Part shown: one piece after another, positions 7,347-35,830 of the stretch
Layout: the number at the start of each line of letters is the position of its first letter
How positions within the stretch are numbered: the first letter of the stretch is position 1
Virus record (IMG/VR): IMGVR_UViG_3300045051_000414
Span: 1 to 35,930 of that record
Source of the DNA: a virus
Strand: one strand, 5' to 3'
DNA: 35,930 nt
Notes under the pieces: generated by a model
Seen by the model: the letters and a program-made list of their open reading frames with translations, nothing else
Databases searched by the model: none
Told to the model about the DNA's origin: nothing
Position numbers and translations under genes: made by a program

Positions 7347-7526
7347 ATGTTCGAGCTGCGCTGCCTGTGCACCAGCCCGAAGTGCGGCCGGCACGAGTTC
7401 CCGCTGCTGCGGAGCAACGTGGTGCGCAAGTCGACCAGCGGGCAGCCGTACACGATCAGCCAGGTGGTCTGCCCGAAATGCAGAATGTGGGCCGAGGTTC
7501 AGGAGATCAAGGAGGTTAAGGGATGA
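7347..7526 (+). CDS. Small zinc-ribbon protein (59 aa)
   Basis: Reads MFELRCLCTSPKCG at the start and VVCPKCRMWAEVQEI at the end. The cysteine pairs around residues 6-13 and 43-46 could form a zinc ribbon; one spacing is unusual (C-x-C, then x5-C). The stop overlaps the next ATG by ATGA. Unknown function; the first of four short cysteine-rich genes in a row. Confidence 0.6.
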   Translation: MFELRCLCTSPKCGRHEFPLLRSNVVRKSTSGQPYTISQVVCPKCRMWAEVQEIKEVKG

Positions 7527-7726
7527 TTTGTCCGCAATGCGATTGCCACCACGACGGGCCGGAGCTGCACTGTCACGACTGTTTGCAGGATCTGGCGCGG
7601 ATGCTGGAGAGCCGGGATATCGCGGTGATCACGGTGGTGACGGAATGGATGCAGTGCCACCTGGTGAAGCCGGAGCGGCCCGACGAAATCGAGTGTCCGA
7701 AGTGCATGCACGAGTTTGAAATCTAA
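7523..7726 (+). CDS. Small zinc-ribbon protein (67 aa)
   Basis: Three CxxC pairs: CPQC near the N-terminus, CHDC about residue 17 and CPKC near the C-terminus. Histidines between the first two (CHHDGPELHCHDC) make metal binding likely. ATG 7523 overlaps the upstream stop and follows AAGGAGG. It may bind nucleic acid or a host protein; no family was recognised. Confidence 0.65.
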   Translation: MICPQCDCHHDGPELHCHDCLQDLARMLESRDIAVITVVTEWMQCHLVKPERPDEIECPKCMHEFEI

Positions 7727-12642: not shown

Positions 12643-12887
12643 AAGGCCTGTTGATGGTCCTGGTGCCGGCCTTGCTGGTCGGTTGCCTGTCGGCTTCGGT
12701 CGAGGTCACCTACAACGAGCAGATGCAGCCGATCAGCTGCCATGCCTCGTACCTGTCGCTGGGCCGTGACGTGGAAGCGGCGGCATTCAAGGTCTGCGGC
12801 AACGATGCAACCGTTGAGAAATCGGCCGGCTCGGATTTTGTGCGGCAGGTGTTGGAGGCCGCCCTGCGCGCGGCGGCGCTGCCCTGA
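12639..12887 (+). CDS. Small lipoprotein of the lysis module
   Basis: An 82-residue protein with a lipoprotein signal: MKGLLMVLVPALLVGC, lipobox LLVGC with acylated Cys16. It should be anchored to the outer or inner membrane. The mature part is short with two further cysteines (SCHAS, KVCGN). Placed after endolysin it could act as a spanin-like component, but no partner inner-membrane spanin is evident. ATGA overlap with the previous gene. Confidence 0.75.
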   Translation: MKGLLMVLVPALLVGCLSASVEVTYNEQMQPISCHASYLSLGRDVEAAAFKVCGNDATVEKSAGSDFVRQVLEAALRAAALP

Positions 12888-13111
12888 TGCCGGATCAGTT
12901 CGACGAGGCGCAGCGTGTGGCGGAGATGCAGCTGGGGGACGCCCTGGCGGCGCACCACCGGCGCGTGAACGAAATCAGGGCGACGCATGGGTTGGCCGAG
13001 TGCGCGGAGTGCGGCGAGGAGATCCCGCAGAAACGGCGGGAGGCGGTGCCTGGTTGCCGGCTGTGCGTGGGGTGTCAAACCAAATTTGAAGCGACGATGA
13101 AGAGGGGTTGA
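12887..13111 (+). CDS. TraR/DksA-type zinc-finger protein
   Basis: A 74-residue protein: an N-terminal helix (DEAQRVAEMQLGDALAAHHRR), then a four-cysteine zinc finger (CAECGEEIPQKRR, then CRLCVGCQ) as in TraR/DksA-family proteins. Such proteins enter the RNA polymerase secondary channel and alter promoter choice. TraR does so without ppGpp. Common in P2- and Mu-like phages between lysis and head genes. The ATG overlaps the previous stop (TGATG). Confidence 0.85.
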   Translation: MPDQFDEAQRVAEMQLGDALAAHHRRVNEIRATHGLAECAECGEEIPQKRREAVPGCRLCVGCQTKFEATMKRG

Positions 13112-16046: not shown

Positions 16047-17629
16047 TGGCACAGCTCGTCGACCCATACGGCCGCCCGATCGAGACCAAGGAGCTGCTCC
16101 GCGAGAAGGCCGCCCCGACCGTGACCGGCATTCGCCGTATCTGGGACGAGACGGTGGCCTCCGGACTGACGCCGCAGCGTCTCGCAGCCCTGCTGCGCTC
16201 GGCCGCAGAGGGGGACCATGACGCCTACCTGACGCTGGCTGAGGAGATGGAGGAGCGCGATCCCCATTACGCCTGCGAGCTGGGCAAGCGCAAGCTGGCG
16301 GTGTCGCGCCTGCCGATCACCATCGAGTCCGCCGGCGACGATCAGAAGAGCATCGACATCGCCGACGCGGTACGCACCCTGGTCAAAGGGGCTGAGTTCC
16401 GGCTGCTGCTCAAGGATCTGCTTGACGGCCTCGGCAAGGGCTATTCCGTGGTTGAGACGATGTGGGACCGCAGCCAAAGCCGGTGGACGCCCAAGCGCTA
16501 CGAGTGGCGCGATCCGCGTTTCTTCCAGTTCGACCAGGCCGCCCGCCGCGAGATCCGGCTGCGCGACGAGTCCGACCTGGTCAATGGTCTGCCCCTGACC
16601 CCTTACGGCTTCATCTGCCATGTCCCCCGGCTCAAGAGCGGCATTCCGATCCGGGGCGGATTTGCCCGGCTGGCGGCCTGGTCCTTCATGTGCAAGGGCT
16701 ACGCGATCAAGGACTGGCTGGTCTTTGCCGAGACCTTCGGCATGCCGCTACGCCTTGGCAAGTACGGCCCAGGCGCGACCGAAGGCGACAAGGACGTGCT
16801 GCGCATGGCGGTGGCCAACCTCGGCACCGACGCGGCGGCGATTTTCCCCGAGTCGATGCTGATCGAGCTGATCGAACGCAAGGGGACCGGTGGAGAGACG
16901 GTCTACCAGGTGCTGGCCGACCATCTCGATGCCCAGATCAGCAAGGGCATCCTCGGCCAGACGGCCTCGGCGGCCGGGACGCCCGGCAAGCTCGGCAACG
17001 ACCAGCTGCAGGCCGATGTGCGCGATGACATCCGCGACGACGACGCGGAGCAGCTCGAAGCCACCCTGCAACGCGACCTGGTCATCCCCTTCGTCGATCT
17101 GAACTTCGGGCCGCAGGAGGTCTACCCGACCCTGCAGCTGCGCGCGGTCAAGCAGGAGGATATCAAGACCCTGGCCGATGCCCTCGACAAGCTGGTCCCG
17201 CTGGGCCTGCGCGTCGAACAGAGCGTGATCCGCGACAAGCTCGGTCTGCCGGATCCGGACAAAAAGGCCAGGCCCGAGGATCTACTGCAGGCGCCGGCGA
17301 AAACGGAGCCGGCTGCCCAGGTCGAGCCGGCGGCCAACCGGGAGCGGTGCGGCTGCCCACATTGCGCGACGGCGTTGAACCGTGTCTCGACGGGAGCCCC
17401 CCTTGACGACATGGCCGAGCACCTGGCCGCCCGGGCCGATGCGCCGATGACGACATGGGTCGAGCAGCTGCGGGCGCTGACCAACCAGGCAGGAAGCCTG
17501 GAGGAGTTGCGCGACCTGGTGCTGGAGGCCTTCCCGGGGATGGACGTTGGGTCGTTGGCGACAATCCTGGCCGAAGAGGCGATGAAAGCGGAGATGCAGG
17601 GCCGCAGCGACGTGAGCGATGGTAACTAA
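16046..17629 (+). CDS. Portal protein, DUF935 (Mu gp29-like)
   Basis: A 527-residue portal, the dodecameric channel at the head vertex. The DUF935 signature runs through PYGRPIETKELL near the N-terminus, RDPHYACELGKRKLAV and the long central region, with the C-terminal GQTASAAGTPGKLGNDQ and PFVDLNFGP. A C-terminal extension has a CGCPHC motif at about residue 433, which is an unusual possible metal site. Start by TAATG overlap with the terminase. Confidence 0.92.
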   Translation: MAQLVDPYGRPIETKELLREKAAPTVTGIRRIWDETVASGLTPQRLAALLRSAAEGDHDAYLTLAEEMEERDPHYACELGKRKLAVSRLPITIESAGDDQKSIDIADAVRTLVKGAEFRLLLKDLLDGLGKGYSVVETMWDRSQSRWTPKRYEWRDPRFFQFDQAARREIRLRDESDLVNGLPLTPYGFICHVPRLKSGIPIRGGFARLAAWSFMCKGYAIKDWLVFAETFGMPLRLGKYGPGATEGDKDVLRMAVANLGTDAAAIFPESMLIELIERKGTGGETVYQVLADHLDAQISKGILGQTASAAGTPGKLGNDQLQADVRDDIRDDDAEQLEATLQRDLVIPFVDLNFGPQEVYPTLQLRAVKQEDIKTLADALDKLVPLGLRVEQSVIRDKLGLPDPDKKARPEDLLQAPAKTEPAAQVEPAANRERCGCPHCATALNRVSTGAPLDDMAEHLAARADAPMTTWVEQLRALTNQAGSLEELRDLVLEAFPGMDVGSLATILAEEAMKAEMQGRSDVSDGN

Positions 17630-18773
17630 GTCGACCTTCACTCTGCCGTTCAACGAAGCGGCGCGCTTTTTCCAGGCGAAGCTTAACATTCCCACGGCCC
17701 GCTGGGACGACCTGTGGCAGGGGCAGCACGCCAAGGGGTTCATGGTGGCCGGGGCGATCCGCGCGGAGCTGCTGGCCGATTTTAGGGCGGCGATCGAGAA
17801 GAGCGTTGCCGGCGGGATGACGCTCCATGAGTTCCGCGAACAGTTCGACACCATCGTGCAAAAGCACGGCTGGTCTTACAACGGTGGCCGCAACTGGCGA
17901 TCGGCGCTGATCTACGACACCAACGTGACCACGGCCTACCAGGCCGGCCGCTGGCAGCAGTTCGTCGAGAGCGGTGCGACGCACCTGATGTACAGGCACG
18001 CCGACGGCGTGCTGCATCCCCGGCCACTGCATGTGGCGCTGCACGGCACGGTGCGACCGATCGACGACCCGTTCTGGAAGACGCACTACCCGCCGAACGG
18101 CTGGGGATGCAAGTGCCGGGCGGTGATTGCCGATGCCGAAGAGGAAACCGGCGTACCGGCGAGCGCTTCCGATCCGAAGACGATCGACAAGGGGTGGGCC
18201 TACAACGTGGGGGAGGCGGGGTTCGGAAGCCCAGCCGAGTGGGCGCCTGATCAGCCGGACAAGTGGCTGCCGTTGGGCCGCGACTTTGCCGACGACTGGG
18301 AAACGCTTGGTTTGCCGAAGCGCCTGCCCAAAGCAGCGACGGCAACTCTTCCGGGGAGTGAGACACTGACGCGAGAGGCCATGGTCGACGCTGTAAAACA
18401 GGCCATCGGCGGGGAGAGTGCATTTTTCGCCATCGATGGCAACAGCGCACACCCATTCGTGATCAACGTCAACGCCGAATTCCTCGGCCAGCACTTGAAG
18501 CTCGATCGCGGCCGCTATCTCCCGTATCTGCGGGAGGTGGTCGAGCAGCCGCAGGAGGTCTGGCTCCGGTTTGAGAAGCATGCGCAGACGGGCAAGGTCC
18601 GGCTGGGAATGCAGCTTTTGCGGGCGGTCGAGACGACCGACGGCAAGACCATGATCATGGGTGCCCAGGTCGACAAAGGGATGCTGGAGGGGTGGACGTT
18701 CTTCGGGACCGACGCGCTCAACTACATCAACAAGCAACGGTGGGGAAAGCTGATCGTGGGGGGAAAAGAGTGA
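17619..18773 (+). CDS. MuF minor head protein with a C-terminal PBECR2-like toxin domain
   Basis: A 384-residue protein. The N-terminal 1-200 is the MuF/SPP1-gp7 domain, with HADGVLHPRPLHVALHGTV and the NGWGCKCRA signature. A linker (200-262) leads to a C-terminal domain (about 265-380: FVINVNAEFLGQHL, LDRGRYLPYLREVVEQPQEVW, TFFGTDALNYINKQRWGKL). This resembles the PBECR2 nuclease-like toxin domains attached to many MuF proteins. MuF sits in the head, so the toxin may be injected with the DNA. Mu gp30 lacks this domain. Overlaps the portal by 11 bases. Confidence 0.85.
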   Translation: MVTKSTFTLPFNEAARFFQAKLNIPTARWDDLWQGQHAKGFMVAGAIRAELLADFRAAIEKSVAGGMTLHEFREQFDTIVQKHGWSYNGGRNWRSALIYDTNVTTAYQAGRWQQFVESGATHLMYRHADGVLHPRPLHVALHGTVRPIDDPFWKTHYPPNGWGCKCRAVIADAEEETGVPASASDPKTIDKGWAYNVGEAGFGSPAEWAPDQPDKWLPLGRDFADDWETLGLPKRLPKAATATLPGSETLTREAMVDAVKQAIGGESAFFAIDGNSAHPFVINVNAEFLGQHLKLDRGRYLPYLREVVEQPQEVWLRFEKHAQTGKVRLGMQLLRAVETTDGKTMIMGAQVDKGMLEGWTFFGTDALNYINKQRWGKLIVGGKE

Positions 18774-23358: not shown

Positions 23359-23634
23359 ATGGCACAAATCACCGTCACAATTCGCAGTGATCGTGGCGAG
23401 CTGGGAACCCACCCGAAGTACGGGCCTCTGACGCCCGGCGCGAAGCTGGTCATTGCCGAGGAGGATTTCGGCGCGGAATTGTTCGAGCGCCCGGCGCCGG
23501 ATTTTCTGTCGCCGCATGAAAAGACCGACCGGGACCGGGCCGCCGAACTCGGGCAAAAAGTCGGCCATCAGGAGCCGCCGCCGAAACAAACGGCTAAAGG
23601 CGGGAAAGGCAAGGAGGTGACCGACAATGCCTAG
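23359..23634 (+). CDS. Small tail-region protein, gp38 position (91 aa)
   Basis: Reads MAQITVTIRSDRGELGTH at the start with an acidic middle (AEEDFGAELFERPAPDFLSP) and a lysine-rich, disordered C-terminus. It occupies the place of Mu gp38, but similarity to DUF2635 is not evident. GGGAAGGAG upstream; the stop overlaps the tube gene by 8 bases. Confidence 0.65.
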   Translation: MAQITVTIRSDRGELGTHPKYGPLTPGAKLVIAEEDFGAELFERPAPDFLSPHEKTDRDRAAELGQKVGHQEPPPKQTAKGGKGKEVTDNA

Positions 23635-24691
23635 TCCAATTACAGGGTTCGGTCAGACGCTAGGCATCAAAAAAGCCTCGGCCTGGAATGTGCCCGCCGT
23701 CTGCGGTACTGGGAATGGTCTGCCGTTTCTCTCTGGCCAAGCCGGCCGCGAAGCCGCCCTGTCCGTCGCCAAGTCGCGCGGCGTCAGTGTCGCCAACAAC
23801 GCCACGCCCGGCCCGATCGACTGCCAGGCGCCCTACAAGTTCGCGTTGCGCTACGAGGGATTCGACGTCCTGCTGGCCCATTTCATGGGGATTGCCGGGG
23901 TACCGGTCCAACAGGGCGCAACGATTGCCTATCAGAACATCCTCAAATGGTCGCCGGACATCTACGGGTTGTTCGTGACGGCGGCCAAGAACATGACGAC
24001 CTACATCGAGGAGATCCCCACGGCCAAGATCGCGGGCATCACCCTGTCCGGCGAAGTCGGTTCGGAACCGCTGGAGCTGGAGGTCGAGCTGATCGGCAGC
24101 AACAAGGAGGTGGCGTCGGTGGTGAACACCTTGGCGACGTTTGCCAACGTGACGAATTACGGCATTCTGCCGCTGCCGACCATGTTCAGCCATCTGCAGT
24201 TCCGCATGAACGATCAGAGTGGTCTCGCGCTGGCCGCCGGGGATGTTATTTACCCGTCGAAATTCAGCCTGTCGGCCAAGCGCAACCTGCTGGGCGAGTA
24301 CACCGGCGAGTACCGGACAACTGGGGCCAACCCGCAGGATCTGCGCGACGAGCCGTCGAACAACGGCCTGCCGGACATCTCCCTGAAGCTGGACTTCGCC
24401 AAGCACACGGCCGCGACGTTCCTGACGGCCCTGGGGAACGACACCCGGAAAAAGATGGATATCATTGCCACCGGGCCGCTCATCGCCGACACCTACTACT
24501 ACCAGCACAAGCTGCAGCTGCCGCACCTGCAGCTGAAAAACGCCAAGCCCACCGACGACCAGGGGCGGCTCAAAGAGCCGCTGGAGTTCCTGGTGCATGC
24601 CGCATCGGCCGCACCTGCGGGCATGACCGGAATTACCGATCCGTTCTGGTGGACGGTGATTAACAAACGCACTGGCGATCCGCTGCAGTAA
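23627..24691 (+). CDS. Major tail tube protein (siphovirus type)
   Basis: A 354-residue beta-rich protein (SVAKSRGVSVANNATPG, YKFALRYEGFDVLLAHFMG, AKIAGITLSGEVGSEPLELE) that fits the long-tail tube family (Phage_tube_2 type). It forms the tail shaft as stacked hexamers. It stands where Mu has its sheath gene L; no sheath is present, so the tail is non-contractile. Followed by a strong hairpin. Confidence 0.75.
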   Translation: MPSPITGFGQTLGIKKASAWNVPAVCGTGNGLPFLSGQAGREAALSVAKSRGVSVANNATPGPIDCQAPYKFALRYEGFDVLLAHFMGIAGVPVQQGATIAYQNILKWSPDIYGLFVTAAKNMTTYIEEIPTAKIAGITLSGEVGSEPLELEVELIGSNKEVASVVNTLATFANVTNYGILPLPTMFSHLQFRMNDQSGLALAAGDVIYPSKFSLSAKRNLLGEYTGEYRTTGANPQDLRDEPSNNGLPDISLKLDFAKHTAATFLTALGNDTRKKMDIIATGPLIADTYYYQHKLQLPHLQLKNAKPTDDQGRLKEPLEFLVHAASAAPAGMTGITDPFWWTVINKRTGDPLQ

Positions 24692-24729: not shown

Positions 24730-24752
24730 CTGACAATCAAGGAGAGGTCGCC

Positions 24753-25103
24753 ATGAATATTGCCGTATTGCGTCGCCCGGAACCCGTCGATCGCATTCGT
24801 ATTTACCCGGGGACCGATGACCTGGCCGCTGTGTATGTGAAATATCTGAACGACGACGAGCGCGCCCAAGTTGGTGTCCTGGTCGACGAACTGGTCAAAG
24901 ATGAAAAGATGGATCGCGAAACGGCTTCGCGAATCGCCTTTGGCCGAATTGCCGTCAAGGGCATCGAGGTTATTTTCGATGGGGAGGTTGAAATGCCCTT
25001 CACCGAAGAGACGGTCGATTTCCTGATGGTCAATGTGCCGGAGTTTCGGAGGGTGGTGTTGACCGCGTCGACCACGCTGCAGCGGACCATCGAAAAAAAC
25101 TGA
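24753..25103 (+). CDS. Tail assembly chaperone G
   Basis: A 116-residue protein between tube and tape measure, the position of chaperone G in long-tailed phages. It reads IYPGTDDLAAVYVKYL, KDEKMDRETASRIAFG and EEMPFTEETVDF in parts, ending TLQRTIEKN. It should coat the tape measure during tail assembly. Its last codons form a frameshift site. AGGAGAGG precedes ATG 24753. Confidence 0.78.
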   Translation: MNIAVLRRPEPVDRIRIYPGTDDLAAVYVKYLNDDERAQVGVLVDELVKDEKMDRETASRIAFGRIAVKGIEVIFDGEVEMPFTEETVDFLMVNVPEFRRVVLTASTTLQRTIEKN

Positions 25104-25408
25104 TTGCCCGCCTCCATGCCCGGCTCGACTTCCCAAAACTCAAGTGCGATCGCTGTGCCGCCACGCAGGAGAAATACGGCGAGCCGCCGTTGTGCCGCAC
25201 CGAGAAGGGGTGTCCGATCCCGCCGCTGCGTCCCGAGGCGCAGCGGATCATGGAGATTCGCGGGCTCCTGGAAAGCCTGCATGGCCTAGTCGATCCCGGC
25301 ACCATCTGCCGGATCTACCGGGTCGAGTCAGACGATTTGCTGCTGCTGGCGGCGTATGAAGACGAGTTGAAGCGCTGTTTAAAAGAGCCTGAACAGGACG
25401 ACGAATGA
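24753..25408 (+). CDS. Frameshift product GT (tail assembly chaperone)
   Basis: If ribosomes slip -1 on A_AAA_AAC at 25094-25100, the G protein (to residue 116) continues for 102 residues in the other frame to the stop at 25406-25408, giving 218 residues. The T part has a possible zinc finger (CDRCAATQEK, then CRTEKGC) and a helical end (AYEDELKRCLKEPEQDD). In other phages the T part recruits tube subunits to the tape measure. No start with a good ribosome site exists for the T part, which supports its being made by frameshift. Overlaps the tape measure start by ATGA. Confidence 0.72.
25094..25100 (+). promoter_or_regulatory. Programmed -1 ribosomal frameshift site
   Basis: Heptamer A_AAA_AAC in the correct phase (codons GAA AAA AAC) directly before the TGA of chaperone G. 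The -1 frame is open to the tape measure start. This is one of the best slippery sequences known in bacteria. No strong hairpin downstream was found. Confidence 0.8.
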
Positions 25409-28194
25409 GCACCAAGCTCGAACTGATCATCACCGGAGATTCAAGCGACGCTACCCAGGCGATCGATGCACTGCAGCGCGCTGGCGCCACAGCGGCCAGT
25501 CTCCTGGAGCGTGAGTTCAATCAGCTTGGAATCCAGTCGGCCTTGGCGTTCGAAAATCAGCGCAAAGCGGCTGACAATGCGTTCCAAAAAATCAAGACAA
25601 GCGGCGTTGCCACGGCCCATGAGCTGCAGCGTGCTCAAGAGGCCTACGCGGCCACCCTGGCCCGGATTGACAAAGCTGAAGGACTGCACACCACGCGGCT
25701 GGAAGAAGTCGACCTTGCGCAGAAGCGTGTTGGGGCTTCCACACAGTCTCTCTCCTCCGCGTATAGTACGCTGGCCGGAGTCATGGCGGCGATGGGGGTC
25801 CAACGGTTCGTCTCGCAGATGGTCGACGCCAAGGTGGCGATCGACCGGATTGACGCGAGCCTGAACACCACCTTTGGTCAAGCGGCTGGGGCAGAATTCC
25901 AATTCGTCGCCAGAGAGGCCGACCGACTTAATCTCTCTTTGACCGGCACGGCGGAAAGCTACGCCTCTTTCGCCGCCGCCACCAAGGGAAGCGCCCTCGA
26001 AGGCGAAAAAACCCGCGCCATCTTCACCGGCATTGTCGAAGCGTCCACGGCCCTCGGGCGGTCTGCTTACGACACGGCCGGCATGATCAACGCCCTCCAG
26101 CAAATGGTCAGCAAGGGGAACGTCCAGGCCGAGGAATTGCGCGGGCAGTTGGGCGAGCGGCTCCCCGGAGCGTTCAGCTTGGCCGCCAAGGCCATGGGTG
26201 TTACGGAACAGCAGCTGAACAAGATGCTGGAGCGCGGCGAGGTGCTGGCGTCGGATCTGCTGCCACGGTTGGCCGCCGCGCTGCACGAGAAGTACGGCCA
26301 GGCCGCCAAGGATGCCGCCGACAAGATGCAGGGGGCGCTGAACGAGGCGGGCAATGCCTGGGACGCCCTCCTGCGCAAATCCGGAGACAGCGCGCCGCTG
26401 ATCGGCACCGTCAACGCCACGACCGCAGCAGTCAAACTGCTCACCGAAAACCTCGACGTGGCGGTGGCCGGGATGACGGCGCTGACGGCCGGGGCGGTCA
26501 TTACCAATCTCGGCACCTTGGCTACGCTCATGAAAGCGGCGGCCGGGTCGGCGGCGCTGATGTCCGCCGGGGTGGCCGGTCTCGTCGGGTTGGTCGGCGG
26601 CGGGGCTTATCTCGCGGCCCGAGAACTCCTAAAAGTTGGCGATGACGCCCTGTTTGACGGAAAGCTTGGTTATGGCGAGAAGAAGCTGAAGGAGGCACAG
26701 CGGTACGCCGAAGAGATCCGAAAAATCAAGGAGAAGAGCGATGCAGCGACAGCCGCCGCCATGTCCGTTGGCCCTGCCGGGCTTGGCTCTGACGCGCTGG
26801 CCAAGCTGAGGGAAGAGCAAGAAAAACAGCACGCCAAGGCCGTCAAATCCGGGGAAGATGCGCTAAAGAGTTACAGTGCCGCACTGAAGGATGTCGGCCG
26901 GGAGCAGATGCGCCAGGCCGAATCGGGCTTTGCCCGCGACATGGAGCGGCAGGCGGAATACTTTGAGCGCACGGCGACGGCGGCCAGCAACCTGACAGCA
27001 CCGATCCAGAGTTATCTGGCGGTGATCGACCAGGTGTACGGAGCCCAGAAAAAGGGGCAGGAAGACATCCTGGCGACGCTGGTGCAAATCGGGGCGACAG
27101 AGGCCGCCCGCCTGCAGCAAGAAATCAATGTCAGTGCCGCCGAAAAGACCCTGCTGGAAGGGCGCCGCAAAGCGTGGGAAACCTATGCCGGCGATGTCGA
27201 AAAGCTGGTCGGCACGGCCTGGGACAATCTGGCCAAGAAGGAAGAGGTGTTGCTGCAATCACGCTTGGCGGCGCAGGCGATCAAGGACGAGCTTGGCGCC
27301 ATCGCCAATCCGAAGCTGGAAAAAGACCCGTTCACGGCGCGGCTGGATCAGCAGGATGCCTTGCGGGAGATGGAACGCAAGGCCCTGGCAACGACCAATC
27401 CCGAAGAAAAGCTGCGGCTGCTGGATGCGGTGGTAAAAGGCTGGGCGGCGCTGAAAACCGAGGTCAAGGACGGCGACACGGTTCTGATTTCCACTCAAGA
27501 TGCGGCAGCGACGGCGCTTGACAATGTAAATCGCGTCAATCAGGAGATCGACGCGCTCAGGGTCAAGCAGACCGAGCAGGCTGCCGAGCAGGTGCAAAAC
27601 CTGACGATGGTCAAGGGGGAGGCCGAGGCGGCCATCAAGGCGCTGAACGCCCAGCTGATCGACCTCGACACGAAGCTCGCCACCATGGCGCTGAAGACCA
27701 TCACGGTGGAGGCCAAGGACCAGGCCACCTCCGAGATCAACACGATCCAGCAGGCGCTCGAAAAGCTCAAGGACAAGACCGTCACCATTACCACCCGCTA
27801 TGTCAATAACATCCCCGGCCGCGGGTCGCAGGGCCAATCGCAAGGGAATGGCGGCGATGCCGGCGGTGGTTCCTCTAAAGGCGGTGGAGACGCTGGCGGC
27901 GGTGATGGGGGTGGTGATGGCGGCGGGGGCTCTGGGAGCGATGCCTCTTCTTCGCAGTCGCTTGCGGCAGGGCCGACGCCAAGGTCCAGGGAATTTATCC
28001 CCAAGACGAAAACGCCGGCGACGAGCGGTTCAGGGCAGCCAAAACCGGCTGGCTCCGCGTCTCAGGTGATCCAGTTCACCGGGCCGATCAGCTTCGCCTT
28101 CCCCAACGTAACCAATGTGAACGACGTCCGCGAACTGGTCCCAGAAATTGCGCGGCTGCTGCGCGAGCGCTATCGCATTTCGATGACAGGGTAA
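25405..28194 (+). CDS. Tape measure protein
   Basis: A 929-residue protein whose length sets the tail length. The N-terminal region has long coiled-coil helices. The tape measure domain follows (AGVMAAMGVQRFVSQMVDA, LQQMVSKGNVQAEELRGQLG, ERLPGAFSLAAKAMGV), typical of the TIGR02675 family. A hydrophobic stretch (about 350-400) follows, then another coiled coil, and near the end a Gly/Ser-rich linker (about 812-852). Siphovirus tails run about 1.5 angstrom per residue, so the tail would be near 140 nm. ATG 25405 overlaps the stop of GT. Confidence 0.9.
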   Translation: MSTKLELIITGDSSDATQAIDALQRAGATAASLLEREFNQLGIQSALAFENQRKAADNAFQKIKTSGVATAHELQRAQEAYAATLARIDKAEGLHTTRLEEVDLAQKRVGASTQSLSSAYSTLAGVMAAMGVQRFVSQMVDAKVAIDRIDASLNTTFGQAAGAEFQFVAREADRLNLSLTGTAESYASFAAATKGSALEGEKTRAIFTGIVEASTALGRSAYDTAGMINALQQMVSKGNVQAEELRGQLGERLPGAFSLAAKAMGVTEQQLNKMLERGEVLASDLLPRLAAALHEKYGQAAKDAADKMQGALNEAGNAWDALLRKSGDSAPLIGTVNATTAAVKLLTENLDVAVAGMTALTAGAVITNLGTLATLMKAAAGSAALMSAGVAGLVGLVGGGAYLAARELLKVGDDALFDGKLGYGEKKLKEAQRYAEEIRKIKEKSDAATAAAMSVGPAGLGSDALAKLREEQEKQHAKAVKSGEDALKSYSAALKDVGREQMRQAESGFARDMERQAEYFERTATAASNLTAPIQSYLAVIDQVYGAQKKGQEDILATLVQIGATEAARLQQEINVSAAEKTLLEGRRKAWETYAGDVEKLVGTAWDNLAKKEEVLLQSRLAAQAIKDELGAIANPKLEKDPFTARLDQQDALREMERKALATTNPEEKLRLLDAVVKGWAALKTEVKDGDTVLISTQDAAATALDNVNRVNQEIDALRVKQTEQAAEQVQNLTMVKGEAEAAIKALNAQLIDLDTKLATMALKTITVEAKDQATSEINTIQQALEKLKDKTVTITTRYVNNIPGRGSQGQSQGNGGDAGGGSSKGGGDAGGGDGGGDGGGGSGSDASSSQSLAAGPTPRSREFIPKTKTPATSGSGQPKPAGSASQVIQFTGPISFAFPNVTNVNDVRELVPEIARLLRERYRISMTG

Positions 28195-28197
28195 AGC

Positions 28198-28557
28198 ATG
28201 CCGCACGCCTTCATCCATACCAACGTCACCGTGCTCTTCAGCCGCAATCCGACCCGTCCCAAGCCGGGGCTGGCGATGATCGGCGCCGAGGATCAAACCG
28301 CCGGCGGGGTGCGCGTAGGGTTTGATCCACTGACCGGCGTGGAAACCCGTTTGCTGCCCTGGTCGGCGATGCCGGATGCCGAACTGGCGGCGCTGCTGGC
28401 GTTCAAGAATACGATCGTCAAAGGCAGCTCGGAAACGTTCACCTGGTTGTCGGCGTCCGGGGTGGCAAAGACGGCGCGGTTGGCCAGCGGCGAGATCACC
28501 TACACCGAGATCGCCCACAATGCCAACCAGGTGGATGTTTTGGTGGAGCTGGTATGA
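28198..28557 (+). CDS. Tail tip protein, unknown (119 aa)
   Basis: A 119-residue, mostly beta-strand protein (FIHTNVTVLFSRNPTR, LLPWSAMPDAELAALLAFKN, SSETFTWLSASGVAK). In position after the tape measure it resembles distal tail components, with a variant of the GFDP motif (GVRVGFDPLTG). No family recognised. Coupled to the following gene by ATGA. Confidence 0.65.
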   Translation: MPHAFIHTNVTVLFSRNPTRPKPGLAMIGAEDQTAGGVRVGFDPLTGVETRLLPWSAMPDAELAALLAFKNTIVKGSSETFTWLSASGVAKTARLASGEITYTEIAHNANQVDVLVELV

Positions 28558-30563
28558 GCCGCGACCTGTACACGCGCGAGACGCCCTGGAGCGTGGCGGC
28601 CTTTGCCCGGGCCTCAACTGCCTACGGGCAGGACGGCAGCCAGGTGGCGAATGGCGTCGGGCGCTATGCCTTTATCGATCCGGTGGTGATCCCCGGCACG
28701 GTCAACCTGATCCCCCTTGCCAGGCAGGACTTCTCCGGCTGGACGGCGCTATCCGGGGCCACGGTGACGGTCAGCCAAAACCAGATGGTGCCCGAATGGG
28801 GGACCGTCAAGGCGACGCGGCTGCAAAGCACCGGCGGCAGCTCGACCGTCAAGTATTCCCTGGCCAATATCGTCAACCCGTCCGTGGCCGGTCAGCCGTA
28901 CACGGGCAGCCTGCTGGTCAAAAACATCGGCGCCAAGGCGGTGGTGATCTCGTTGAGCCTGCCGGGTGCAACGACGGTGACCATCAACCCGGGGGAGGTC
29001 AAACCCGTGGCAGTCAGCGGCACCGGCGATGGGGTCACGGGCTTGAACCTGCGCTTTGGTACGGCAGCGGCCGGTGATGACTTCGACATCCTGGCCTATC
29101 AACCCCAGGCCGAGAATCGCAGCACGGCGACGCCGTTTACTCCGAACAGCCGCAATGTGGCCCTGGCTGCCGGGCCGAATGGCCGCGGCCTGCTGATCGA
29201 GGGGGCTGTGACCAATCTGATTGCGCTGGCGCGGCAGGACTTCTCCGGCTGGACCGAGCTGTCCGGAGCGGTGGCGACCATCACCCAGAATCAAGCGGTT
29301 CCCGAGTGGGGGACGTCGGCGGCGACGCGGGTGCAGACTGCGGGCGGCTCGTCAACGGCCAAATACTCCCTGGCCAACATCGTCAACCCGTCGGTGACCG
29401 GCCAGCCGTACACGGGGCTGCTGAAAATCAAGAATATCGGCGCCAAGGCGGTGGTGATCGGGTTCAGCCTGGCGGGGGCCATCTCGGTCACAGTCAATCC
29501 CGGCGAGACCAAGGACGTCAAGATCACCACGACGGGCGATGGCGCGACCGGTCTGAACCTGCGCTTTTCCACGACGGCGGCCGGGGATGCAATCGACGTG
29601 CTGGCGTGGCGGCCGCTGGCGGCGGCGACGGCGCGCACCACCAGCTGGCACGAAAGCACCCGGGTGGCGGAAACGCTGACCCTGCCCGCCTCGGTGCTGC
29701 CGGCGACGGGCGCCGCCGGCAGTTGGGAGCACGACCTGGTCCCCGGCGCAACGGCGTATCTGCAGACCAGCCCCAAGCCCCGCCTGTTTTCCCTCGAGGG
29801 GAGCAGCGGCTACATCACGGTGCGGCATGCCAGCGATTCCGCCTCGTTTGAACTGGTCTTTACCGATGGAACCGCGACTACGACCGCAACCTTTGCCGAT
29901 ACGCTGATCCCTTCCGCCAAGGTGCGCCTGAGCCTGACCTGGAATGCCACGGTCGCCAGGCTGTTCGTCGACGGGACCGAGGTGGCCACCATCAACACTC
30001 CGGCGTTGCCGGCGGCATTTACCGGCGCGGAGATCGGTTACAGCGTGGCCACAACCTATGCCGACAGCCTACACCAGACGGTGCGGATCTCGTCACGGGT
30101 GCGTGCCATCAGTGAGGTCAAGGCGTCGATCGGCAAGCCGCTGCGGATGGACAATGCCACCAAGGGCCTTTGGCTGGTCCCGAATAATGGCGAGGCGCTG
30201 CTGGTGCGCTACACCGATCAGAGCGCCCAACTGCCGGGGGCGCCGCAGCGCCCGCACAAGGTGGTCGACAGTTTGCCGCAGCAACGCGGCCGGGATTCGC
30301 TCGGCAATCCGTATATCTATCACCACGGCGGGGTGCGGCGCGTTCGCCAGGAGCCGCAATACATCCGGCTGACGGAGACCGACCTGGTCAACCTGACGAC
30401 CTTTGTGCAAACGGGCCTGGGCGGGGTTCGGCGCAATTGCACCTGGGTCGATTTCGACGGCACGGCCCGAACGGTGCGTTTGCTGACTGGAAAGCTGGAT
30501 CCGGTTCCTGACAACGGGTTCTACGCGGTGGTGCTCCCCTCGGAAGAGGAGATCGCACTATGA
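28554..30563 (+). CDS. Tail tip/adhesin protein with a tandem duplicated beta module and LamG-like domain
   Basis: A 669-residue protein. Residues 51-186 and 221-356 are copies of one beta-sandwich module (both contain ARQDFSGWT, then YSLANIVNPS, then IGAKAVVI), 170 residues apart with no gap. A LamG-like sandwich follows (about 371-510: SFELVFTDGTATTTATFAD, LSLTWNATVARLFVDGTEVA). The last ~150 residues (RMDNATKGLWLVPNNGEAL, GGVRRNCTWVDFDGTARTV) form a separate tail-associated end. The beta modules are probably sugar-binding. It overlaps both neighbours by ATGA. Confidence 0.7.
   Translation: MSRDLYTRETPWSVAAFARASTAYGQDGSQVANGVGRYAFIDPVVIPGTVNLIPLARQDFSGWTALSGATVTVSQNQMVPEWGTVKATRLQSTGGSSTVKYSLANIVNPSVAGQPYTGSLLVKNIGAKAVVISLSLPGATTVTINPGEVKPVAVSGTGDGVTGLNLRFGTAAAGDDFDILAYQPQAENRSTATPFTPNSRNVALAAGPNGRGLLIEGAVTNLIALARQDFSGWTELSGAVATITQNQAVPEWGTSAATRVQTAGGSSTAKYSLANIVNPSVTGQPYTGLLKIKNIGAKAVVIGFSLAGAISVTVNPGETKDVKITTTGDGATGLNLRFSTTAAGDAIDVLAWRPLAAATARTTSWHESTRVAETLTLPASVLPATGAAGSWEHDLVPGATAYLQTSPKPRLFSLEGSSGYITVRHASDSASFELVFTDGTATTTATFADTLIPSAKVRLSLTWNATVARLFVDGTEVATINTPALPAAFTGAEIGYSVATTYADSLHQTVRISSRVRAISEVKASIGKPLRMDNATKGLWLVPNNGEALLVRYTDQSAQLPGAPQRPHKVVDSLPQQRGRDSLGNPYIYHHGGVRRVRQEPQYIRLTETDLVNLTTFVQTGLGGVRRNCTWVDFDGTARTVRLLTGKLDPVPDNGFYAVVLPSEEEIAL
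28704..29622 (+). repeat. In-frame duplication within the adhesin gene
   Basis: Bases 28704-29112 and 29214-29622 encode near-identical modules offset by exactly 510 bases, with many silent differences between them. The duplication is thus not very recent. It separates from the LamG domain at about 29640. Confidence 0.8.
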
Positions 30564-35074: not shown

Positions 35075-35830
35075 ATGCACAAACCGATTATCCCATGGAT
35101 CGGCGGTAAACGCCGGCTGGCTAAACAACTGCTCCCGCTTTTCCCGGAGCACACATGTTACTGCGAACCGTTCTGTGGAGCGGCCGCCCTGTTCTTTCTC
35201 AAACCGATATCAAAAGCCGAGGTCATCAATGACCTCAATAGTGATTTGGTCTGCCTGTACCGCGTGGTGCAACACCATCTTGACGAGTTTGTCAGACAGT
35301 TTCGTTGGGCTTTGGCCAGCCGCGAGATATTTAAATGGCTGAACGACACGCCACCGTATGTGCTGACTGACATCCAGCGCGCTGCTCGCTTTTACTATCT
35401 GCAGCGGACGTGTTTTGGGGGGAAGGTAAACTGCAGGACGTTTGGTGCCGATCCGAGCGGCCCGCCCCGGATCAACCTGCTTCGCATTGAGGAAGATCTC
35501 AGCCAGGCTCATCTTCGGCTGGCTAGGGCAACGATCGAGCACCTCCCGTGGGAAGAATGTATATATAAGTATGATCGCCCGACGACCTTCTTCTATCTTG
35601 ACCCGCCGTACTGGCAAACTGAAGGATATGGCGTGCCCTTCCCATGGGGAGAATACGAGCGCCTGGCAGATGTAATCCGGAATTTGAAAGGTAGAGCCAT
35701 TCTCAGTATCAACGATCATCCTGATATTCGCAGGGTGTTTGCTGGTCTGGAAATGACCTCTGTCGGAATCAATTACACGGTTGGAGGTGGGCGGCGCGGG
35801 GGAGTGAGGGGGGATGAGAAACCAATCTAA
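35075..35830 (+). CDS. dam: N6-adenine DNA methyltransferase, D12/Dam class
   Basis: A 251-residue enzyme that methylates adenine in DNA using S-adenosylmethionine. The N-terminal motif is PWIGGKRRLAKQLLPLF, motif I YCEPFCGAAALFFLKP, the catalytic motif IV TFFYLDPPYWQ (DPPY), and the late motif INDHPDIRRVF is present. It is probably a phage-DNA protection enzyme against host restriction, in the place of Mu mom. The C-terminus ends INYTVGGGRRGG followed by a G-rich tail, where relatives usually carry a short extra motif. GGAGG lies 6 bases before ATG 35075. Confidence 0.9.
   Translation: MHKPIIPWIGGKRRLAKQLLPLFPEHTCYCEPFCGAAALFFLKPISKAEVINDLNSDLVCLYRVVQHHLDEFVRQFRWALASREIFKWLNDTPPYVLTDIQRAARFYYLQRTCFGGKVNCRTFGADPSGPPRINLLRIEEDLSQAHLRLARATIEHLPWEECIYKYDRPTTFFYLDPPYWQTEGYGVPFPWGEYERLADVIRNLKGRAILSINDHPDIRRVFAGLEMTSVGINYTVGGGRRGGVRGDEKPI

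Follow-up and report, generated by a model that had tools for sequence, protein, structure and literature searches.

A probable G/GT tail assembly chaperone pair in a Mu-like phage, predicted to be expressed by −1 ribosomal frameshifting and bearing a conserved four-cysteine motif in its T extension

The window analyzed here is a 35,930-nucleotide stretch of the IMG/VR record IMGVR_UViG_3300045051_000414 (positions 1 to 35,930), a Mu-like transposable phage displaying a Mu transposase C domain, a Mu portal and a Mu-like major head protein. On its plus strand, a tail tube protein gene of the Phage_tube_2 family (23627–24691; Pfam PF18906, E 1.2e-8, above the cut-off) is followed by a Shine-Dalgarno-like element, AGGAGAGG (24740–24747), which we rate as good from the sequence, and by gene G (24753–25103), which is predicted from its open reading frame, the profile matches of its relatives and an AlphaFold2 (AF2) model to code for a tail assembly chaperone of 116 residues. 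The last codons of G carry a candidate slippery heptamer for −1 ribosomal frameshifting, A_AAA_AAC (25094–25100), recognized by its phase, its conservation and its in-phase uniqueness, and the codon right after it is the UGA stop of the unshifted frame (25101–25103). The −1 frame encodes the T extension (25100–25408; 102 residues and a stop), for which the open frame, the codon-position bias of the relatives and the identity to the T of the nearest of them provide the evidence, and which would yield a GT fusion of 218 residues. Within T lies a C-x2-C-x12-C-x5-C motif (25145–25213), a probable metal site marked by invariant columns in 20 T proteins, whose cysteine codons start at 25145, 25154, 25193 and 25211. 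The ATG (25405) of the tape measure protein gene (25405–28194; Pfam TMP_3, E 2.7e-26; PHROG tape measure, E 7.8e-46) overlaps the T stop, TGA (25406–25408). The G/T pair is thus flanked by a Phage_tube_2 gene and a TMP_3 gene, an order repeated in the relatives described below, where homologues of the tube gene are syntenic and lie immediately 5′ of GT.

Several other genes of the window merit a mention in their own right. A Mu F-like head protein (17619–18773) has at its C-terminus a PBECR2 nuclease-like domain (Pfam, E 1.1e-16), a toxin-like fusion in a virion protein. A tail-region protein (28554–30563) contains an internal duplication of two 300-base copies, 510 bases apart and 75% identical, followed by a lectin-like stretch (sub-threshold Laminin_G_3). 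There are also two small cysteine-rich proteins (7523–7726 and 12887–13111), one with 67 residues, several CxxC motifs and no Pfam match, whereas the other contains a zinc finger of the DksA/TraR type (E 2.4e-12). A D12-class adenine DNA methyltransferase is encoded at the record's right-hand end (35075–35830; E 1e-25).

The 3′ codons of G read GAA (25092), AAA (25095), AAC (25098) and TGA (25101), which places A_AAA_AAC in the X_XXY_YYZ phase at 25094–25100, and a ribosome slipping back by one base there would continue with CTG ATT GCC and so on through 102 codons (25100 to 25405). Base by base, this agrees with an earlier note on this DNA, which had placed the heptamer in the correct phase at the G stop, described the −1 frame as open for 102 codons up to the tape measure start and given the fusion 218 residues (116 + 102). 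The string AAAAAAC occurs four times in the window against 2.3 expected from shuffling, so the heptamer by itself is unremarkable and it is its phase and place that count. The 18 window genes scanned, with 6,934 codon positions, contain nine in-phase XXXYYYZ sites, and the only one of the form A_AAA_AAN is that at 25094.

Relatives of the locus were reached by an indirect route. Neither G nor T of the window had a tblastn match among 50,697 phage records, and nothing was confirmed in single-protein scans of virus contigs with the window G, T, tube and tape measure proteins or in a genome scan with the tube protein; a T profile found none in 398 genomes of the Arenimonas phylum, a search that had no positive control and shows little. 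The first relative (L009), a prophage in a proteobacterial MAG with a tube protein 37% identical to that of the window, was obtained via the portal protein, and downstream of its tube gene it features A_AAA_AAG, a stop one codon on and a −1 T with the cysteines. Its tube protein as query led to 14 virus contigs, and profile searches of Desulfobacterota genomes together with T searches of virus contigs added further loci. The T family is present in 24 distinct phage-type loci, and the T proteins of related loci are 15–47% identical to that of the window. Nearest among the relatives is L113, whose T is 51% identical over 92 residues and whose G is 36% identical and likewise ends in EKN-stop.

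The heptamer conservation that the earlier note had proposed to examine in homologous loci is pronounced: 23 of the 24 distinct loci keep a canonical heptamer, A_AAA_AA[G/C/A] or G_GGA_AAC, in phase at the same junction, with the G stop 0–8 codons past it in 22 of these 23 and 92 codons past it in L087. The same note had named fused frames lacking a slippery site as what would speak against it, and no homologue among the phage loci examined joins G and T in a single reading frame. The one exception to heptamer conservation, L120 (the same place as L103), is a prophage with CAAAAATGA at the junction and a T ATG overlapping the G stop; since its open reading frame in the tape-measure position has only ~195 residues, its sequence suggests a tail module that is decayed or altered. 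If the encoded amino acids and the codon usage of the respective locus are taken as given, the slippery codons have a probability of 0.02–0.43 at any one locus; for 13 representatives the nominal product is 8e-15, a value exaggerated by shared ancestry. A-rich codons are kept at the junction even in GC-rich loci (e.g., L095, L122, L114 and the window). Moreover, differences in the T frame between pairs of relatives with T at least 55% identical fall on codon positions 1/2/3 as 834/682/1553, a protein-coding substitution bias.

This recurrence bears on two other explanations of the frame change. As the window is a metagenomic virus record and long A runs are error-prone, G and T might be one gene in one frame, split by a sequencing or assembly error; we regard this as extremely improbable because 23 distinct contigs that differ in their G sequences share the arrangement and, one lineage excepted, have their stops 0–8 codons beyond the heptamer. 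Slippage of the RNA polymerase on the A run, rather than of the ribosome, could be entertained for the seven consecutive A's of the window or the nine of L087, but the run is just six A's long in L094, L112, L114 and L122, and the GGGAAAC of L116/L117 contains no long homopolymer, so transcriptional slippage is highly unlikely. The in-phase XXXYYYZ is moreover a ribosomal signature, and the stems found downstream in relatives (see below) fit a ribosomal stimulus.

A third possibility is that T is made separately, by reinitiation or from its own start after G, without any fusion. The G stop does overlap a T-frame ATG (TAATG) in L083, L086, L089, L090 and L094, and L120, which lacks the heptamer, has an ATGA overlap; however, the heptamer is still kept in the TAATG loci, and there is no T-frame ATG, GTG or TTG before the first motif cysteine in the window or in L009, L082, L084, L085, L092, L093, L113, L117, L121 and L122, where the part of T devoid of start codons is the most conserved one. 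In the window, the first such codon after the upstream stop of the T frame is codon 31 (TTG, 25190), which follows cysteines 1 and 2 of the motif and directly precedes cysteine 3. As an ordinary start cannot yield the conserved part of T, frameshifting is, as read from the frames, its only ordinary route, and separate translation of T can be considered excluded for the window. As an account of the family, translation of T without fusion is very improbable, and as an extra route it is possible in the TAATG loci.

Elements that might stimulate the frameshift differ between the window and its relatives. All 13 L009-type loci show a stem 4–10 bases 3′ of the heptamer, with best z-scores of −2.1 to −7.3 against dinucleotide shuffles and 0–8% of background windows in their own surroundings reaching energies as low, and a similar downstream stem is seen in L121 and L122. 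Because RNAalifold recovered no common covarying stem across the L009 group, these stems are a local-energy result and not a proof by covariation. In the window, no local downstream stem is detectable (z 0.4; z 1.1), and the Shine-Dalgarno-like score upstream of its heptamer does not exceed that of synonymous controls. A GGGAGG upstream of the heptamer in many relatives was considered as a Shine-Dalgarno-like stimulator and rejected, as synonymous-codon controls (mean z −0.8) indicate that the encoded Arg-Glu explain most of its occurrences. A_AAA_AAC is less shift-prone in E. coli than A_AAA_AAG (PMC5009743). With this less slippery heptamer, no stem and a stop codon next to it, low-level slippage is expected in the window, as a chaperone of the G/GT class needs.

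G is a probable tail assembly chaperone, judged by the profiles of its relatives and by its predicted fold. Each of the 12 G proteins in the alignment hits phrog_313, "Tail assembly chaperone" (best E 1.1e-14), the window G by itself doing so weakly (E 0.26). The best PDB match of the AF2 model of the window G (pLDDT 77) is the HK97 chaperone (2ob9; Z 5.5, 93 residues, 5.0 Å), followed by YqbN (3klu; Z 5.1), the remaining matches being at 3.7 or below. A Z of about 5 is modest by itself, and we consider the modeled fold match credible since a tail chaperone heads the list. HK97 itself has an annotated −1 frameshift product; its chaperone differs in showing 8% sequence identity to the window G. 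PHROG 313 includes T5-like phages, and the G of L084 matches T5-like chaperones (E 4e-8), whereas the downstream frame of the T5-like records stands at +1/−2 relative to G. In three such phages (L098, L099 and L100), a homologue of the relatives' G is followed by a long +1/−2 open reading frame overlapping the end of G, and the published annotation predicts no frameshift signal for T5-like chaperones (PMC6256483). The idea that the T5-like T is a homologue that lost its cysteines was rejected, as it has no detectable similarity to the T described here.

The T extension is the unusual part of this pair. When 20 T proteins are aligned, no column is invariant except the cysteines that occupy positions 16, 19, 32 and 38 of the window T, and all four are also present in 25 of 25 sequences of a separate T alignment. 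What had been flagged from the single sequence as a possible C-x2-C ... C-x5-C zinc finger thus recurs, in its four cysteines, in all aligned relatives. The distance between the third and fourth cysteines varies from 2 to 26 residues, being x2 in most, x5 in the window and x26 in L082. Otherwise similar T proteins of L082, L083, L089 and L094 have Gly/Ala-rich inserts of differing lengths, which separate the third cysteine from the fourth by as many as 26 residues. Searches of Pfam, PHROG, NCBIfam and PDB sequences yielded nothing convincing for the T family, with only sub-threshold zinc matches in Pfam and NCBIfam, and the open papers searched contained no relevant report of zinc or cysteine in tail chaperone T domains. 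The lambda T has no cysteine and those of D3112 and RS1 have none or one and no CxxC; in this small comparison, the few T domains examined agree with the remark that such a motif is unusual. By these sequence comparisons, the four-cysteine form of T appears to be new, in a T family that has no database entry.

The four cysteines probably form a metal site, most likely one for structural zinc. The model of T has a pLDDT of 81, falling to 66–70 around the cysteines, and its fold search returned no match at E 0.001 and no VIA-align row above Z 4; we infer the zinc site, therefore, from the cysteines themselves. That the motif instead holds an iron–sulphur cluster or forms disulphides is an unlikely reading, though one to be taken seriously. 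The relatives come from genomes of Desulfobacterota, an often anaerobic, Fe-S-rich group, which lends the cluster some appeal. The counterarguments are ones of reasoning and not of test: the two short-spaced cysteine pairs look like zinc knuckles, whose usual appearance this is, and disulphides are unlikely in a cytoplasmic chaperone.

Taken together, we consider it very likely that this locus is a G/GT tail assembly chaperone pair made by −1 frameshifting. The production of two chaperone versions by ribosomal slippage is long known in phages, and the frameshift locus is a further member of the known G/GT class. Its precedent is the gpG/gpGT pair of lambda (Levin, Hendrix and Casjens 1993; Xu et al. 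2004, 2013, 2014; reviewed in PMC5009743), where most ribosomes make G and some slip to produce GT, G binding the tape measure and T the tube protein (PMC5009743). The window shares with lambda the order tube–G–T–tape measure, a −1 frameshift near the end of G and an expected low level of the GT fusion; it differs in that lambda has a T devoid of cysteine and another slippery sequence, and there is no detectable sequence similarity between the two. The tail chaperones 17.5/17.5* of SPP1 likewise form a pair, for which a putative −1 frameshift is described at another canonical heptamer, UUUUUUC (PMC6316719), a comparison made here by description.

Accordingly, we propose that most ribosomes would stop at the UGA at 25101 to release the 116-residue G and that a minority, in the phage's host, would slip back by one base on A_AAA_AAC, with tRNA-Lys and tRNA-Asn re-pairing with AAA and AAA, to make the 218-residue GT, giving a ratio presumably dominated by G. 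By analogy with lambda, G would form a coat on the tape measure protein, and the scarce GT molecules would use their T part to recruit tail tube subunits. The first part of this T is predicted to be a small module held by the four cysteines, most likely through structural zinc, and followed by helices.

A relative of the T module also lies outside phage tail operons. Seven Desulfobacterota genomes (L104–L110) have a chromosomal open reading frame of ~190–210 residues, which in the three loci read through (L104, L107 and L108) is situated between a recJ-like gene and a gene for a CoA-binding protein. It is in one frame, lacks a slippery site and has a C-terminal half homologous to the four-cysteine T domain (hhalign probability 98, E 6e-14). 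Its N-terminal half scores 17.9 against G, compared to at most 11.8 in 60 shuffled controls, a suggestive similarity at the sequence level. We raise, as a tentative and rather doubtful conjecture, that the T of the Desulfobacterota-associated phages is a metal protein, with zinc or Fe-S, whose site is essential for starting tail tube assembly, and that the same module in the recJ-side gene represents a chaperone captured by cells or the reverse.

The relatives offer a natural series, with one junction, several heptamers and a downstream stem either present or lacking, for studying what a frameshift site requires. Little is understood about the T part of tail chaperones, and the four invariant cysteines of this lineage provide a concrete handle on what its binding to the tube needs. 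The interest of the family would rise further with evidence that the metal matters or that the bacterial gene next to recJ is a captured chaperone.
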